DNA from: Streptomyces sp. NBC_00582
Lineage (GTDB): Bacteria; Actinomycetota; Actinomycetes; Streptomycetales; Streptomycetaceae
DNA: 64,000 bases
Direction: 5' to 3'
NCBI RefSeq assembly: GCF_036345155.1
Contig: NZ_CP107772.1
Coordinates: forward strand, 2,108,001 to 2,172,000
Shown: positions 57,592-64,000 of the stretch, one piece after another
How the letters are laid out: each line of letters opens with the position of its first letter
How positions within the stretch are numbered: position 1 is the stretch's first letter
The notes under the pieces: generated by a model
The model's input: only the letters and a program-made list of their open reading frames with translations
What the model was told of the DNA's origin: nothing
Database searches by the model: none
Made by a program: the position numbers and the translations under genes

Positions 57592-58767
57592 TCAGCCGTC
57601 GCCGCGCACCGTGAACTCCACTCCCTCATCGGCCAGTTCGTCGAGCCATTGAGCCGACCGGGCCGCCGTCTCGGCCGCCCGGTTCAGGCCGGGCGGCAGT
57701 GTGCCGTCCAGGATGTGCCGGACGCCGAGCGCGAGGGTGCGCGAGACGCACCGCGCCATGGCGCTCTCCTCCTCGTCGCCCACCAGGTCCAGCAGGTAAC
57801 TCCCCGCCCAGGAAGCCTGGTCGTCCGCCGCGTCGGAGTCCGCCTCCTGCGAGACCTCCAGGGAGACCTCCAGGACCACCCGGTCGCGGTCGGTGTCGGT
57901 CGTCGGATAGGTGTCGGCCAACTCCCGTGCCAGCGAGGCGATCCGCGCGTCGTCGCCCGCCTTCAGCTCCTCGAACACCGGCTCCCAGGCCCCCAGCCAG
58001 CCGTCCAGACGGAGGGTGCCGCGTACGAAGCCGACCGGCTTCCAGGCGGGCGGCAGCCCGTACTGCTCGACGAAGGGCACGCTGTCCCGGTTGGGGTACA
58101 CCTCGAAGGACTCGCCGTCGACGACGTGCCGGCGGGTCGCCTCCCAGGGCCGGGCGGCGACCGTCTCGGCGCCGTCCGCGAAGTAACGAGCCGGTGTGCG
58201 AAGGGCGTTGAGAACCCCGAGAGGCGCCCAGCTGAAGCGGTAGCGGAAGTCGTTCGGGACGGCCGGGACACCGCCGCAGTACGAGGTGAAGCGGTACGAG
58301 GCCGCCGTGTCCGCGCCGACCGCCTCCCGTGCGCGGGCGACCAGCGCATGGGCGAAGAGATGGTCGATGCCCGGGTCGAGGCCGGCCTCGGTGAGGACGA
58401 CCAGCCCCGCCCTCCCGGCCGCCGGGACCTGCTCCAGCACCGCGTCCGAGACATAGCTGGAGCAGGCGAAGTGGGCGCGCCGGGCCACGCAGGCCGCGAG
58501 CAGCGGGGCGTGGTCGGGGGCGGGCAGCATCGACACGACGACGTCACCCGGGGCGAGTTCGGCCGTGAGCGCGTCCAGGGTGTAGGCCCGGGGTGCGGCG
58601 CGCCCGGTCAGGCCCAGCCGGTCCAGGGCCTCGGCCGCGCGGTCCGTCGTACGGTGCCACAGCCGGACGCCGTCGGTGCGCGCGCACAGGCCGGCGAGCC
58701 CGCTGCCCGTGGACAGGCCGGCGCCGACCCAGTGGACGGTGCCGCTCGCGGGAACCACCTCAGTCAT
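57592..58767 (-). CDS. saccharopine dehydrogenase (LYS9/saccharopine reductase-like)
   Basis: NAD(P)-binding protein of 391 residues: WVGAGLSTGSGLAGL as the dinucleotide loop, SMLPAPDHAPLLAACV, SYVSDAV, LTEAGLDPGIDHLFAHALV and SYCGGVPAVPNDFRYRFSWAPLGVLNAL, all typical of the glutamate-forming saccharopine dehydrogenase/saccharopine reductase family. It catalyses interconversion of saccharopine with glutamate and aminoadipate semialdehyde in relatives. ATG 58767 overlaps the preceding gene by 8 bases. Last gene of the leftward FAD-oxidase operon. Confidence 0.9.
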   Translation of the reverse strand: MTEVVPASGTVHWVGAGLSTGSGLAGLCARTDGVRLWHRTTDRAAEALDRLGLTGRAAPRAYTLDALTAELAPGDVVVSMLPAPDHAPLLAACVARRAHFACSSYVSDAVLEQVPAAGRAGLVVLTEAGLDPGIDHLFAHALVARAREAVGADTAASYRFTSYCGGVPAVPNDFRYRFSWAPLGVLNALRTPARYFADGAETVAARPWEATRRHVVDGESFEVYPNRDSVPFVEQYGLPPAWKPVGFVRGTLRLDGWLGAWEPVFEELKAGDDARIASLARELADTYPTTDTDRDRVVLEVSLEVSQEADSDAADDQASWAGSYLLDLVGDEEESAMARCVSRTLALGVRHILDGTLPPGLNRAAETAARSAQWLDELADEGVEFTVRGDG

Positions 58768-59842
58768 GGCCGAACTCGCCTCTTCCTGTGTTGAGTTCGA
58801 TGCCGAGTTCACGACCCGCCCGCCGGAACCGTTCGAGACAGCGCGCCCAGGCGTCCCCGGCGGGGAGCTCCAGCAGCGGGGGCAGCAGGGCCGCCGAGAA
58901 GTCGGTGCTGGACTCGCGGGGCAGCAGCGACGGCAGGTTGTCGATGGCGATCAGATCGAGCGGGGGTTCCTTGTGCAGGGTGCGCACGGGGTCCGTCCAC
59001 TGCGTGGTGCGGTCGTAGACGGGCAGGACGTTGAGGGGCGAGCCGACGTCGCAGGTGACGTCGCAGAGGGTGCGCAGCCTGCGGGCCGGGTCGTCCAGGT
59101 CTTCCTCGCGGACGAACGGCGGCACCGGGGTGGTGGCGAGGACGCAGTTCACGAGCAGGTCGTGGTCCAGCAGGGCGCGGCGGTCCAGCTCGCGGGTCTC
59201 CGCGAGGTCCCAGCAGGTGGGGTCGGCCCCGGCCGTGGCGAGGGCGGCCCGGGCGCCCCGGCCGCTGCGGCCCAGGGCGCCGACGACGAGTGCGGTGAAC
59301 TCCTCGTCGCCCGGCCGGCGGCGCAGGGTCTCGTCCAGCTCGTCCTTGTCGGTGGGGCGCAGCGGTGCGGTCAGCCGGCCCCGGTGGTGGAGCACCGCGA
59401 GCGCGGCGCCGAGGTAGCCCGCCCAGAAGCCGAACGCGGCGAGCCTGCGGCCCTGTTCGTCGACCAGGTACTCCAGGTCCAGGAGCGCCCCTCCCCCGGC
59501 GGCGAACCGGCGCAGCAGGTCGGCCGCGCCGGGCTGCTGCTTGTAGGCGTGCCCGAAGAAGACATGGCGGTGCGTCAACTCCGTCGGCTCGTCGGGGAGT
59601 TCCTTCAGGCCGAGGACGACGGTGTCCGGCGGCGCCGACACCCAGGAGCCCGCGGGGGCGACGCGGGCGCCGATCGCCTCGTACTCCTCGACGGGGAAGA
59701 TCCGCTGCGGGGACTCCTCGACGGTCAGCCGCGCCCCGGCCTCGACGAGACGGCGGGCGTCGTCGGGGACGAGGGGGGTGCGCCGTTCGGTGGTGCGGGT
59801 CTCGTGGCGCAGCCACAGGTGGGGGGCGGTGCTGCCCGTCAT
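58760..59842 (-). CDS. saccharopine dehydrogenase, lysine-forming (LYS1-like)
   Basis: 360 residues with the alanine-dehydrogenase/PNT N-terminal fold: WLRHETRTTERRTPLVPDDARRLVEAG near residue 9, FFGHAYKQQPG near 92, LLDLEYLVDEQGRRLAAFGFWAGYLGA, and a C-terminal CDVTCDVGSPLNVLPVYDRTTQW. It matches LYS1-type enzymes that interconvert saccharopine with lysine and 2-oxoglutarate. ATG 59842 is coupled to the FAD oxidase stop by an ATGA overlap. Having the lysine-forming and glutamate-forming enzymes together implies a saccharopine route, unusual for Streptomyces, which is better known for cadaverine or aminotransferase lysine catabolism. Confidence 0.9.
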   Translation of the reverse strand: MTGSTAPHLWLRHETRTTERRTPLVPDDARRLVEAGARLTVEESPQRIFPVEEYEAIGARVAPAGSWVSAPPDTVVLGLKELPDEPTELTHRHVFFGHAYKQQPGAADLLRRFAAGGGALLDLEYLVDEQGRRLAAFGFWAGYLGAALAVLHHRGRLTAPLRPTDKDELDETLRRRPGDEEFTALVVGALGRSGRGARAALATAGADPTCWDLAETRELDRRALLDHDLLVNCVLATTPVPPFVREEDLDDPARRLRTLCDVTCDVGSPLNVLPVYDRTTQWTDPVRTLHKEPPLDLIAIDNLPSLLPRESSTDFSAALLPPLLELPAGDAWARCLERFRRAGRELGIELNTGRGEFGHD

Positions 59843-60984
59843 ACGCGGTTGACCTCCGGACGCGGGGCGTCGGCCGCGAACCGGCCGGCGCTCAGGGGGG
59901 TGACGTCCACGAAGGGTACGCGGCCCAGGTAGAGGTCGCGGACGACCTCGCCGACGGCCGGCCCCTGCAGGAAGCCGTGCCCGGAGAAACCGGTCGCATA
60001 CAGAAAACGGGATACCGAATGCGCCTCACCGATCAGGGCGTTGTGGTCCGGGGTCACCTCGTACAGTCCCGCCCAGCCTCCCGTGCGGCGCAGCTCCAGG
60101 ATGTCGGGGGCCCGGTGCTCCAGGGCGGCGGCGAGGCGGGGGATCCAGCGGTCGTGGGTGTCGGTGGCGAAGCCGGGGCGTTCGTCCGGGTCGGACATGC
60201 CGACGAGGAGACCGGGGCCCTCGCCGTGGAAGTAGAGGGTGGTGGTGAAGTCGATCGTCATGGGCAGGTCCGGCCGAAGCCCGGGCACCGCTTCCGTGAC
60301 CGCGATCTGTCGGCGCAGCGGCTGCACCGGCAGGTCCACGCCCACCATCGCGCCGACCGGCCGGGACCAGGCGCCGGCCGCGCAGATCACCGTGTCGGTG
60401 CTGATCGGGCCGAGGGTGGTGGTGACACCGGTGATGGTGTCGCCGCGGGTCTCGATGCCGGTCACCGCGGTGCGGCGCAGGATGCGCGCCCCGTGTCCGC
60501 GGGCTGCGGCCGCGTACCCCTGGACGACGGCCTCGGGGGTGCAGTGCCCGTCGTCGGGTGAGAACGCGGCCGCGCGTAAGCCGTCGGTGGTGATGAGCGG
60601 CGAGAGCCGGCGGGCCTCGGCCGGGTCGATCATGCGGCTGGGCACGCCGAGCGCGTTCTGCAGGGCCACGCCCGCCTCGAAGGAGGCGACCTCCTCGGGG
60701 GTGGAGAGCAGGAAGAGGTAGCCGACCCGGTGCAGCCCGATGTCCTGCCCGAACTGCTCGCCGAACCGCGCGAACGCCTCCAGGCTGCGCGCCCCGAGCT
60801 GGATGTTCAGCTCGTCGGAGAACTGGGCGCGCACCCCTCCGGCGGCCTTCGAGGTCGAGCCGGCGGCGAGCTCGTCCCGCTCCACCAGCAGGACGTCCCG
60901 TACGCCCGCGGCGGCCAGATGGTAGGCGATGCTGGTCCCGATCACTCCCCCGCCGATGACGACGACCGAGGCATGCGTGTTCAC
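59839..60984 (-). CDS. FAD-dependent amine/amino-acid oxidase (DAO family)
   Basis: 381 residues. FAD motif VVVIGGGVIGTSIAYHLAAAG at 7-27, STSKAAGGVRAQFS, ICAAGAWS near 210 and the C-terminal GGWAGLYEVTPDHNALIG and ATGFSGHGFLQGPAVGE, all typical of sarcosine/glycine oxidase-type D-amino-acid oxidases. It heads the saccharopine operon and might oxidise a secondary amine such as saccharopine, pipecolate or an N-alkyl amino acid. Codon Leu at 60579-60577 is TTA, read only by the developmental bldA tRNA. A patch near 59994-60012 also uses A/T-rich codons (TTT CTG TAT). Confidence 0.9.
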   Translation of the reverse strand: MNTHASVVVIGGGVIGTSIAYHLAAAGVRDVLLVERDELAAGSTSKAAGGVRAQFSDELNIQLGARSLEAFARFGEQFGQDIGLHRVGYLFLLSTPEEVASFEAGVALQNALGVPSRMIDPAEARRLSPLITTDGLRAAAFSPDDGHCTPEAVVQGYAAAARGHGARILRRTAVTGIETRGDTITGVTTTLGPISTDTVICAAGAWSRPVGAMVGVDLPVQPLRRQIAVTEAVPGLRPDLPMTIDFTTTLYFHGEGPGLLVGMSDPDERPGFATDTHDRWIPRLAAALEHRAPDILELRRTGGWAGLYEVTPDHNALIGEAHSVSRFLYATGFSGHGFLQGPAVGEVVRDLYLGRVPFVDVTPLSAGRFAADAPRPEVNRV

Positions 60985-61092: not shown

Positions 61093-61752
61093 TCAGGACC
61101 AGTGCGCCACCGCGTCCAGGTGCGGCAGCCGGTGGTCCATGCGCTCGCGCTTGGTGCGCAGGTAGGTGATGTTGTTCTCGCACGGCTCTATCAGCAGCGG
61201 CACCTCCTCGGCGACCTGGATGCCGTTGTCTACGAGCGCCTCGCGCTTGCGCGGGTTGTTCGACATCAGCCGCACGGACCGTACGCCGAGGTCGCGCAGG
61301 ATGTCGGCGGCCACCTTGTAGTCGCGGGCGTCCACCGGGAAGCCGAGCGCCACGTTCGCCTCGACGGTGTCCAGGCCCTCCGCCTGCAGGGCCATCGCGC
61401 GCAGCTTGCCGAGCAGACCGATGCCGCGGCCCTCGTGCCCGCGCAGGTACACGACGATCCCGCTGCCCGCGGCGACGACGGCCCGCAGCGCCGACTCCAG
61501 CTGGTCGCCGCACTCGCAGTGCTGGGAGCCGAACGCGTCTCCGGTCAGGCACTCCGAGTGCAGCCGGGTCAGCACGTCCTCGCTGCCGATCTCGCCGTAC
61601 ACCAGGGCGACTTGTTCGTCGCCGCGGTCGTGGTCGAGGTAGCCCACCGCCTGGAATTTCCCGTACACGGTGGGCAAGGGGGCATTCACCACGCGTTCCA
61701 CGCCGGTGCGCTGCGGGGTCTTCTTGCCGAGTACGCCCATTTTCTCTGTCAT
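61093..61752 (-). CDS. ribA: GTP cyclohydrolase II, methionine-120 variant
   Basis: Opens the imidazole ring of GTP. 219 residues, stand-alone RibA with zinc cysteines 68, 79 and 81 (HSECLTGDAFGSQHCECG), the GRGIGLLGKLRAMALQ segment and SNNPRK near 164. Where E. coli RibA has Tyr105 in KIRAYALQ, this protein has Met120. In S. coelicolor the paralogue with Met at this position (SCO6655, from memory) stops at the formamidopyrimidine nucleotide without losing formate. It is divergent from a creatininase-family gene 38 bases away, which could finish the reaction. No FMN riboswitch fits in that gap. Confidence 0.94.
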   Translation of the reverse strand: MTEKMGVLGKKTPQRTGVERVVNAPLPTVYGKFQAVGYLDHDRGDEQVALVYGEIGSEDVLTRLHSECLTGDAFGSQHCECGDQLESALRAVVAAGSGIVVYLRGHEGRGIGLLGKLRAMALQAEGLDTVEANVALGFPVDARDYKVAADILRDLGVRSVRLMSNNPRKREALVDNGIQVAEEVPLLIEPCENNITYLRTKRERMDHRLPHLDAVAHWS

Positions 61753-61790
61753 GATCTGATTCCTAAGCGGAGACGAAAGGCCGGGAAAAG

Positions 61791-62639
61791 ATGAGTGGTT
61801 CGGAGATGAGGACGGCGGCGACGGCAGCGGCGGGCGCGGCGTACGGCCTGGTGCCGGTGGACACCACCGAGGACGTCCGCTCCCGGGGTGCGGGCGCCGC
61901 GACGCAGGTGGCGGTCCTGCCGGTCGGCAGCTTCGAACAGCACGGCCCGTACCTGCCGCTCGCCACGGACACCCTGGTCGCCTGTGCCATCGCGCGGGAG
62001 ATAGCCGAGGCGTACCCGGTGCACCTCCTTCCGCCGGTGACCATCGCCTGCTCGCACGAGCACGCGGCCTGGCCGGGGACCGTCAGCATCTCCTCCGTGA
62101 CCCTTCACGCGGTGGTACGGGACATCGCGGCGTCGCTGCGCCGCTCGGGCGTCGAGGCCCTGGTTCTGGTCAACGGACACGGCGGGAACTACGTCCTGGG
62201 CAACGCGGTCCAGGAGTCCTCCGCCCGCGGTGAGCGGATGGCGCTCTTCCCGGCCCCGGAGGACTGGGAGGCGGCGCGGGAACGGTCCGGGGTGCGGACC
62301 TCGCTCCTCACCGACATGCACGCCGGGGAGATCGAGACGTCGATCCTGCTGCACACCCATCCGGAACTCGTCCGGCCCGGTTACGAGTCCGCCGATTTCA
62401 CCGCGGACGACCGTCGCCATCTGCTCACGCTGGGAATGTCCGCCTATACCGATTCGGGCGTCATCGGCCGTCCTTCCCTGGGGTCCGCGGAAAAGGGGAA
62501 GGAACTCCTCGCGAGCCTGGCGGATTCCTTCGGCGCGTATTTCTCACTGCTGACTTCGCGGAAGCCGACTTCGGAGAAGTCACCGAGCCCGGAGAAAACC
62601 TGGGACTCGGGGGACTCCGGGGACTCCGGCACCGAGTAG
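61791..62639 (+). CDS. creatininase-family amidohydrolase, FAPy deformylase candidate
   Basis: Metal-dependent hydrolase of 282 residues. Metal-site motifs: LPVGSFEQHGPYLPLATDT (Glu49, His51, Asp60), VNGHGGNYVLGN near 127 and DMHAGEIETS near 179. The family includes creatininase, MftE of mycofactocin maturation and archaeal ArfB, which deformylates the formamidopyrimidine nucleotide made from GTP. Beside the Met120 RibA the ArfB-like role is the best guess. No mycofactocin genes are visible. ATG 61791 follows GGGAAAAG. The last 65 codons (ending WDSGDSGDSGTE) overlap a gene on the other strand and look like a disordered tail. Confidence 0.9.
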   Translation: MSGSEMRTAATAAAGAAYGLVPVDTTEDVRSRGAGAATQVAVLPVGSFEQHGPYLPLATDTLVACAIAREIAEAYPVHLLPPVTIACSHEHAAWPGTVSISSVTLHAVVRDIAASLRRSGVEALVLVNGHGGNYVLGNAVQESSARGERMALFPAPEDWEAARERSGVRTSLLTDMHAGEIETSILLHTHPELVRPGYESADFTADDRRHLLTLGMSAYTDSGVIGRPSLGSAEKGKELLASLADSFGAYFSLLTSRKPTSEKSPSPEKTWDSGDSGDSGTE

Positions 62640-63871
62640 GCCGCCGTGCGCACGGGGCCGCTCTCACCGGCCCCGGCACCGGCGGCCCCGTTCTCCTCGG
62701 CCTGGGCCCCCTGCGGCCGACCGGCGCGTACGGCCGCGTACCAGCGCACGACGAGGACGACCGCCCCCGGCAGCGCGGCGACGAAGCTCAGCACGCCGTA
62801 GACCACCGCCACCGACAGGCCGGTGTCCGCGCCGAGTCCGGCCGCGCCGAACGCCCAGGCGGTGACACCCTCGCGGGGGCCCCAGCCGCCGACGTTGAGC
62901 GGCACGGCCATGGCGAGCAGGGCGAGCATCGCGATCGGCAGCAGGGTGAGGACGGTGACGGAGGAGCCGGCGACCCGCGCGGCCACGACGAACATCGCGA
63001 CGTACCCGGCGAGCACGACCACCGACGACAGGGCGACCCCCGGCCCGTTGCGCCGCGACAGCAGCCCCTCGCGCGCCTCGGCCAGCAGCCCGCCGAGACG
63101 CCCGGCCGTACGCGTCCGGGAGGAGTTCATGCGCAGCGCGAGGACCACGGCGAGCGCCCCCACCCCGGCCAGCAGGATCAGCGGGGCGAGGCCGCGCGCC
63201 TCGGCCATGACCGGGGAGGGCAGCACCAGCAGGACCGTTACGCCCGCGACGGCCAGCGCGAGCTGTCCCGCCGTGCGCTCCAGCACGACCGCCCGTACAC
63301 CGCGCCCGACGTCACCGGCGCTCTGCCCGTGCCGCACGGCGCGGTGCACGTCGCCGAGGATCCCGCCGGGCAGCGCCGCGTTCAGGAACAGCGCCCGGTA
63401 GTAGTCGGCGACCGCCGCGCCGAACGGCAGCCGGATCCGCAGGCCGCGCGCCACCAGCGCCCACCGCCAGGCGCTGAACACCGTGGTGACCGCGCCGATC
63501 CCGAGCGCGAGCAGCAGCGTCGGGACGTCGATGCGGCGCAGCCCGTCCAGGAACACGCCCGTCCCCATCCGCCACAGCAGCACCACGAGGATGAGGACGC
63601 CGGCGACCGTCCCGAAGTGCGTGCGCAGGGCGCGCGAGGCGAGGACCCTGCGCCACGCCGGCGGGGTGCGGTGCGCCTTGGTCACGATGACGCCGATCCG
63701 GGCCTCGGACACGGCGGGACCGGTGCGCGCCACCGACGGGGCGCGCGGCGGGCGCCGTACGGCCGGGGCGCCCTCGACCCGCACCGCGGGCGCGGCCGGC
63801 ACGCGGGCGGCCGGCGGACCGGCCGCCTCGCGCCCCCGGCCGGTCCGCGCGCTCACCGTCTCGGCGCTCAT
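62444..63871 (-). CDS. UPF0104/lysylphosphatidylglycerol-synthase-type membrane protein
   Basis: 475 residues. A 75-residue arginine/proline-rich N-terminus is followed by about eight membrane helices (FGTVAGVLILVVLLW, LLLALGIGAVTTVFSAW, LALAVAGVTVLLVLPSP, LIPL-type and a final VVYGVLSFVAALPGAVVLVVRW), with the conserved ALPGGILGDVHRAVRHG and PLNVGGWGPREGVTAW. These are hallmarks of the flippase-like domain of MprF/YbhN proteins. The C-terminal 130 residues are acidic and serine-rich, and the last 65 are encoded opposite the creatininase gene. ATG 63871 overlaps the upstream stop by one base. Confidence 0.88.
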   Translation of the reverse strand: MSAETVSARTGRGREAAGPPAARVPAAPAVRVEGAPAVRRPPRAPSVARTGPAVSEARIGVIVTKAHRTPPAWRRVLASRALRTHFGTVAGVLILVVLLWRMGTGVFLDGLRRIDVPTLLLALGIGAVTTVFSAWRWALVARGLRIRLPFGAAVADYYRALFLNAALPGGILGDVHRAVRHGQSAGDVGRGVRAVVLERTAGQLALAVAGVTVLLVLPSPVMAEARGLAPLILLAGVGALAVVLALRMNSSRTRTAGRLGGLLAEAREGLLSRRNGPGVALSSVVVLAGYVAMFVVAARVAGSSVTVLTLLPIAMLALLAMAVPLNVGGWGPREGVTAWAFGAAGLGADTGLSVAVVYGVLSFVAALPGAVVLVVRWYAAVRAGRPQGAQAEENGAAGAGAGESGPVRTAAYSVPESPESPESQVFSGLGDFSEVGFREVSSEKYAPKESARLARSSFPFSADPREGRPMTPESV

Positions 63872-64000
63872 CAGGCGCGTCCCGTCGGCCGGGCCAGGGC
63901 GAGCAGGTCGCTGTGGTGGACGGTGACCCGCAGCTCGCCCGCCTGGCAGGCGGCGAGCCGGGCCGCCAGATAGGTCTCGGCGCGTTCGGTGAGGTCGGGG
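63871..64000 (-). CDS. C-terminal end of an unidentified protein (partial)
   Basis: A leftward frame enters from the right edge and ends at TGA 63873-63871, sharing a base with the next ATG. The visible 42 residues (ending LLALARPTGRA) contain LRVTVHHSDL, faintly like the C-terminal strand of 6-pyruvoyl-tetrahydropterin synthase-type proteins, which would suit the nearby GTP cyclohydrolase; this is too short to rely on. Confidence 0.5.
   Translation of the reverse strand, partial: PDLTERAETYLAARLAACQAGELRVTVHHSDLLALARPTGRA

Follow-up and report, generated by a model that had tools for sequence, protein, structure and literature searches.

A GTP cyclohydrolase II (GCH II) normally carries out two reactions on its own: it opens the ring of GTP, and it then takes off the formyl group. 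In archaea, these two steps are divided between two enzymes; ArfA (GCH III) makes the formamidopyrimidine nucleotide, FAPy, and ArfB deformylates it. The locus described here raises the question of whether a bacterium might divide the reaction in a similar manner, and which pathway would be supplied. In a 64,000-nucleotide stretch of the genome of Streptomyces sp. NBC_00582 (G000:C1:2108001-2172000; hereafter, the window), a RibA-like GCH II in which methionine replaces a tyrosine is encoded next to a divergent gene of the creatininase family, whose members hydrolyze varied C-N bonds. The initial annotation had proposed that the RibA-like protein stops at FAPy, that its neighbor is the deformylase, and that the product is destined for something other than riboflavin. 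Here, we assess this proposal by a comparison of related genomes.

The RibA-like enzyme and its divergent neighbor

The RibA-like gene is on the reverse strand, at 61093-61752, and is a complete open reading frame of 219 amino acids. Its product passes both the family model PF00925 (GTP_cyclohydro2; 218.7 bits, cut-off 23.3) and the ribA model TIGR00505 (232 bits, cut-off 205.85). In a HMMER alignment with the E. coli enzyme (PDB 2bz0), Met120 is opposite Tyr105, as had correctly been pointed out in the initial annotation. That is, the protein departs from the canonical GCH II, which carries tyrosine at this site and forms the deformylated nucleotide, APy. Cys68, Cys79 and Cys81, the zinc ligands, and Arg143, the catalytic arginine that serves as nucleophile, are conserved in all 125 GCH II rows compared (80 + 45). 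Because these residues are retained, the RibA-like protein looks functional; it resembles a working enzyme with a single altered position.

The start codons of the two divergent genes are separated by 38 bp (61753-61790). The neighbor, correctly annotated as a member of the creatininase family, is on the forward strand at 61791-62639, and is a complete open reading frame of 282 amino acids with 217.3 bits to PF02633 (Creatininase; cut-off 31.3). By curated models, we reject the assignment of this protein as a true creatininase, ArfB or the mycofactocin protein MftE, as it scores below the cut-off of all three: 96.8 bits for creatininase (TIGR04448; cut-off 235), 36.4 bits for ArfB (NF033501; cut-off 180), and 137.4 bits for MftE (TIGR03964; cut-off 172), the last being the best curated match. 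Five residues, namely Glu49, His51, Asp60, His130 and Glu182, are invariant in 62 of 62 aligned proteins of this family from the clusters described below. Judging by the positions in known creatininases, these are presumably the metal ligands, and their invariance is as expected of an active hydrolase. The protein is a candidate FAPy-nucleotide deformylase; its fold is evident from the Pfam match, and a fold would not by itself reveal the substrate.

The 3′ end of this gene overlaps that of the convergent gene downstream by 196 bp (62444-62639). The same tail-to-tail overlap of frames is seen in 106 of 109 convergent loci, with a median of 133 bp; the few outlying values probably reflect errors in the frames.

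A conserved gene cluster extending past the window

The pair forms one end of an eight-gene locus, which the end of the window cuts through. The convergent gene (62444-63871, reverse strand) encodes a flippase-like membrane protein of the LPG_synthase_TM family (PF03706, 117.2 bits). It is followed, also on the reverse strand, by a SAM methyltransferase gene (Methyltransf_25, 29.4 bits) whose 3′ end is in the window (63871-64000) and which continues in the adjoining stretch (L008:372-1391). Beyond the window, Pfam matches identify a GT4-type glycosyltransferase (L008:1475-2683) and, after the gene for a PTPS-like protein (L008:2680-3120), a dehydrogenase and then a CDP-alcohol phosphatidyltransferase.

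The PTPS-like protein, which is not part of the pair, is an ortholog of SCO6650 from Streptomyces coelicolor (PDB 3d7j; 268.2 bits), listed as an uncharacterized protein. Among the loci compared, to which that of S. coelicolor itself does not belong, the top tblastn hit of 3d7j has 92 to 95% identity. SCO6655 is the FAPy-forming GCH II of the SCO6650 locus, with Met120 as its switch residue; in the work of Spoonamore et al. (2006), SCO6655 with Met120 reportedly yields FAPy, and a Met120Tyr variant gains the formation of APy. A FAPy-forming GCH II of Streptomyces is already known. The window protein likewise carries Met120 within a locus of the SCO6650-SCO6655 type, and by this synteny its gene looks like the SCO6655 ortholog rather than a new paralogue. 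Judged by locus type and residue, the two enzymes probably do not differ.

On the other side of the pair, genes for a saccharopine dehydrogenase-like protein, an AlaDH/PNT N-domain protein and an FAD-dependent DAO-type oxidoreductase follow one another at 57592-60984. We rejected these as members of the system, since the DAO, AlaDH_PNT_N and saccharopine dehydrogenase-like genes are found in only 53, 52 and 50 of 80 related loci, respectively.

Distribution among related genomes

The related loci are the best 80 of 412 relatives, 79 of them from Streptomyces and one from an 'Actinobacteria bacterium'. Met120 and a neighboring creatininase-family gene are found in all 80, and the arrangement is therefore not a chance one. 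Within these best 80 of 412, the flippase-like gene is present in 79 loci, the methyltransferase gene in 73, and the other four cluster genes in 72 each. The single locus without the flippase-like gene ends before that gene is reached, and in the 8 loci short of cluster genes the RibA gene is close to the end of the stretch.

Among 394 genomes sampled evenly across the class, 40 of which are from the genus of the window, a RibA with at least 66% identity is found in 20 of the 40 genus genomes, and the same 20 have the adjacent creatininase gene as well as the PTPS-like gene. Met120 was read in 19 of 19 of these genomes besides that of the window. The remaining 20 have neither such a RibA nor the PTPS-like gene; in two of them (G356 and G392), a creatininase gene of lower similarity occurs without the cluster. 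Across the class, the PTPS-like gene occurs in 57 of the 394 sampled genomes.

Three forms of the cluster

In a further comparison, loci were anchored on the PTPS-like gene, taking all those in the 394-genome sample plus 50 matches from 200 genomes of one family and 44 from 150 genomes of one order. We distinguish form A, with a non-Tyr GCH II and the creatininase gene; form B, with a Tyr GCH II and no creatininase gene; and form C, with neither gene. Four loci were dropped before the count: L154, L156 and L242, whose GCH II appears by eye to be the housekeeping RibBA, a long frame on the opposite strand (Tyr type, no creatininase gene), and L237, where the RibA is a 52-residue fragment with the residue unreadable. 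Three further entries were assigned manually, namely L163 (both genes on one contig, with the creatininase gene some 14 kb away from the PTPS-like gene, as seen in L114), L213 (tyrosine read by eye) and the window.

The resulting 132 loci comprise 61 of form A, 30 of form B and 38 with neither gene, some of the last on short contigs; one has a non-Tyr GCH II without the creatininase gene, none combines a Tyr GCH II with a creatininase gene, and two have a creatininase gene without a visible GCH II. Thus, of the 92 loci whose GCH II could be read, 61 of the 62 non-Tyr ones have the creatininase gene, as against 0 of the 30 Tyr ones. The sole exception (L193) lies where a contig ends, and the creatininase gene is found on contig C104 of its genome, G506. 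As to the two loci without a visible GCH II, the contig of L115 carries one, while in L183 the contig ends and the second GCH II of the genome is on another contig. The initial annotation had posed the question of how often Met-type RibA genes sit beside creatininase genes; the two genes are neighbors in all of the best 80 of 412 relatives, and the creatininase gene accompanies 61 of the 62 non-Tyr enzymes of this wider set.

Position 120 in the 62 non-Tyr enzymes is occupied by Met (30), His (25), Leu (5), Gln (1) or Asn (1). The Tyr-type cluster enzymes have the motif GLY.KLDAY, and this difference in GCH II motifs indicates that forms A and B differ by a swap of enzyme type, not by a point change. 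The downstream gene set is identical in the Tyr clusters without the creatininase gene.

Joint presence and loss of the two genes

On a tree of the clusters built from the PTPS-like, dehydrogenase and glycosyltransferase proteins, the transition between Tyr and non-Tyr is one change, and the contrast of 61/62 and 0/30 thus counts once. Within the non-Tyr clade, both genes are present in 62 loci and both are missing from 14, with no locus holding just one of them, which corresponds to 7 changes on the tree; here, L115 was entered as having both genes from the presence of a GCH II on its contig, not from the residue. All 5 of the independent pairs that could be drawn from well-supported branches are concordant (sign test, p = 0.0625). 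A larger tree, from which 12 further rows were left out for short contigs or weak kinship, provides 4 independent pairs (p = 0.125).

The 14 loci that have lost both genes (L152, L155, L159, L165-L170, L173, L178, L189, L192 and L197) retain the flippase-like, methyltransferase, glycosyltransferase, dehydrogenase and CDP-alcohol genes. Of the 14 genomes, 10 carry just one GCH II, a Tyr-type enzyme encoded elsewhere; the other 4 have three each. A close creatininase is absent from 13 of these genomes, and the one in G507 (60% identity) is away from the cluster. These 14 clusters look as if a housekeeping enzyme supplied the intermediate.

Adjacent genes can vanish in one event, which weakens the evidence from joint loss. 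By our own count, however, the RibA and creatininase genes flank the PTPS-like gene on opposite sides in 19 loci (e.g., L093, L094, L095, L185 and L195). Because both genes are kept in this arrangement, their joint presence does not merely reflect adjacency. As judged by co-occurrence, it is the non-Tyr GCH II, rather than the downstream genes, that the creatininase gene accompanies.

Riboflavin genes and creatininases outside the cluster

The genome has two further GCH II genes, both with the tyrosine. One is a Tyr-type RibBA in a riboflavin operon, adjoining lumazine-binding and NMN-transporter genes, with a RibH-like frame recognized by eye downstream. Given this separate operon, riboflavin should not depend on the Met-type enzyme, and we reject the pair as the supplier of riboflavin. 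The other (L011:9928-12394) adjoins genes for a MarR-type regulator and for a fusion of a RibD C-terminal domain with a deaminase domain. The motif GLY.KLDAY is common to this third GCH II and to the cluster enzymes of the creatininase-free form, which it resembles.

Creatininases related to that of the cluster also occur on their own. Thirteen of them, from 12 genomes, are on stretches without the cluster (L096, L098, L099, L100, L102, L104, L105, L108, L109, L111, L112, L116 and L117); they belong to the same subfamily and make up a single clade, which is nested among the cluster-type proteins. Of the 12 genomes, 11 have no PTPS-like gene. In addition, a close creatininase is found elsewhere in the genome in 5 of the 19 Tyr-clade genomes tested. 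If these proteins prove to use another substrate, they would be a warning against the proposed function. The neighbor of the creatininase gene in L105 looks, by eye, like an XRE-type regulator.

Proposed reaction sequence and alternatives

From the observed sequences, residues, synteny and co-occurrence, we infer both reactions of the route that follows, APy as its branch point, and the nature of its product. The RibA-like protein would open the ring of GTP and remove pyrophosphate; lacking the tyrosine, it would leave the formyl group in place, and its product would be 2-amino-5-formylamino-6-ribosylamino-4(3H)-pyrimidinone 5'-phosphate, i.e., the FAPy nucleotide. The creatininase-family protein, presumably metal-dependent, would then hydrolyze the formamide to yield 2,5-diamino-6-ribosylamino-4(3H)-pyrimidinone 5'-phosphate, i.e., APy, and formate. 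APy would enter the steps of the PTPS-like protein, the dehydrogenase, the glycosyltransferase, the methyltransferase, the flippase-like protein and the CDP-alcohol transferase, and the end product may be a pterin- or pyrimidine-derived compound, perhaps glycosylated and methylated. Since the creatininase gene tracks the non-Tyr GCH II, the simplest mechanism is that the half-reaction otherwise supported by the tyrosine is performed by the creatininase-family protein. We consider it likely that GCH II is split in this manner, as the initial annotation proposed, and that the resulting APy feeds the pathway of the cluster. Both the contrast between Tyr and non-Tyr loci and the joint loss of the two genes argue for the three parts of that annotation, namely the arrest at FAPy, the deformylation by the partner, and a product that is not destined for riboflavin.

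The pathway probably branches off at the deformylated product, APy, and not at FAPy, because sister clusters appear to run either on a Tyr-type GCH II without the creatininase gene, or without either gene. Forms B and C make sense if a source of APy remains, be it the Tyr-type GCH II of the cluster or the housekeeping enzyme.

The creatininase-family protein might instead act on a later intermediate, at another amide or a cyclic amide, such that FAPy would be the branch point and the products of Tyr and non-Tyr clusters would differ. The variety of C-N bonds hydrolyzed by this family leaves room for this reading, as do the related creatininases that exist without the cluster and the uncharacterized nature of the downstream genes and product. 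We consider it unlikely, however, since the creatininase gene is kept or lost with the GCH II rather than with the downstream genes, and since Tyr clusters that lack it have that same downstream set. Alternatively, the loss of the tyrosine could leave the reaction intact, in which case RibA would itself make APy and the creatininase gene would be a passenger. That position 120 is filled by five different residues in the non-Tyr set might be taken to suggest as much. This idea conflicts, though, with what is reported of SCO6655 and its Met120Tyr variant; moreover, a passenger would hardly have been retained by 61 of 62 such clusters, nor would its putative metal ligands be expected to stay invariant. 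We find it highly improbable.

It could also be argued that the pair is a spare route to riboflavin. APy is a riboflavin intermediate as well, and this role is the one proposed for BrbF of Sinorhizobium, which serves riboflavin (PMC9478397). Nevertheless, riboflavin synthesis already has an operon of its own in this genome, equipped with a Tyr-type RibBA; the pair travels with the PTPS-like, glycosyltransferase and methyltransferase genes; and the cluster is absent from 20 of the 40 sampled genus genomes, a pattern that makes a spare route very unlikely. The split GCH II pair seems, rather, to supply the conserved cluster and not vitamin B2.

Relation to known two-enzyme systems

ArfA and ArfB resemble the arrangement proposed for the window pair, in that the formation of FAPy and its deformylation are divided between two enzymes. 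They differ from it in that the first enzyme of the window pair is a GCH II, which is not known to be related to the archaeal GCH III, and in that the second falls short of the ArfB model (36.4 vs. 180 bits). The suggestion in the initial annotation that the pair is a bacterial version of the archaeal route can thus be upheld for the proposed division in two steps, but not for the identity of the second enzyme, which may work in the manner of ArfB without being an ArfB by that model.

A bacterial creatininase-family FAPy deformylase is not new. BrbF (SMc02977), annotated as a creatinine amidohydrolase, releases formate from the FAPy nucleotide in Sinorhizobium; the enzyme that makes this nucleotide there is stated to be still awaiting discovery (PMC9478397). 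BrbF and the window partner are both of the creatininase family, and the reaction of BrbF is the one proposed here for the window protein; however, BrbF serves riboflavin and its gene sits between MarR and CobW genes (PMC9478397), whereas the window gene adjoins that of a GCH II. In the open-licence literature, we found no report of a linked GCH II/creatininase pair or of their covariation in actinobacteria.

On balance, we favor the view that a conserved actinobacterial pathway may draw its pyrimidine from a split GCH II pair, that one Tyr-type GCH II, or the riboflavin enzyme of the cell, could take the place of this pair and vice versa, and that the pair would constitute a gene-linked partner set of the kind missing for BrbF. 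If so, the FAPy-forming GCH II of Streptomyces would be given a purpose, a function would be assigned to an uncharacterized creatininase subfamily, and an entry point would be marked for an orphan pathway whose PTPS-like gene is as widespread in the class as described above. The locus would also be a readable case of the two chemical steps of one enzyme being divided between two genes. As for BrbF, whose partner is reported to be missing (PMC9478397), the window pair suggests that candidates be sought among tyrosine-lacking GCH II proteins rather than among relatives of GCH III.

The genome of the window encodes a second creatininase (L009:5090-5758), which is a remote relative. Within L009:5090-7188, its gene is beside that of a family 2 glycosyltransferase, in what appears by eye to be a mycofactocin-type neighborhood.
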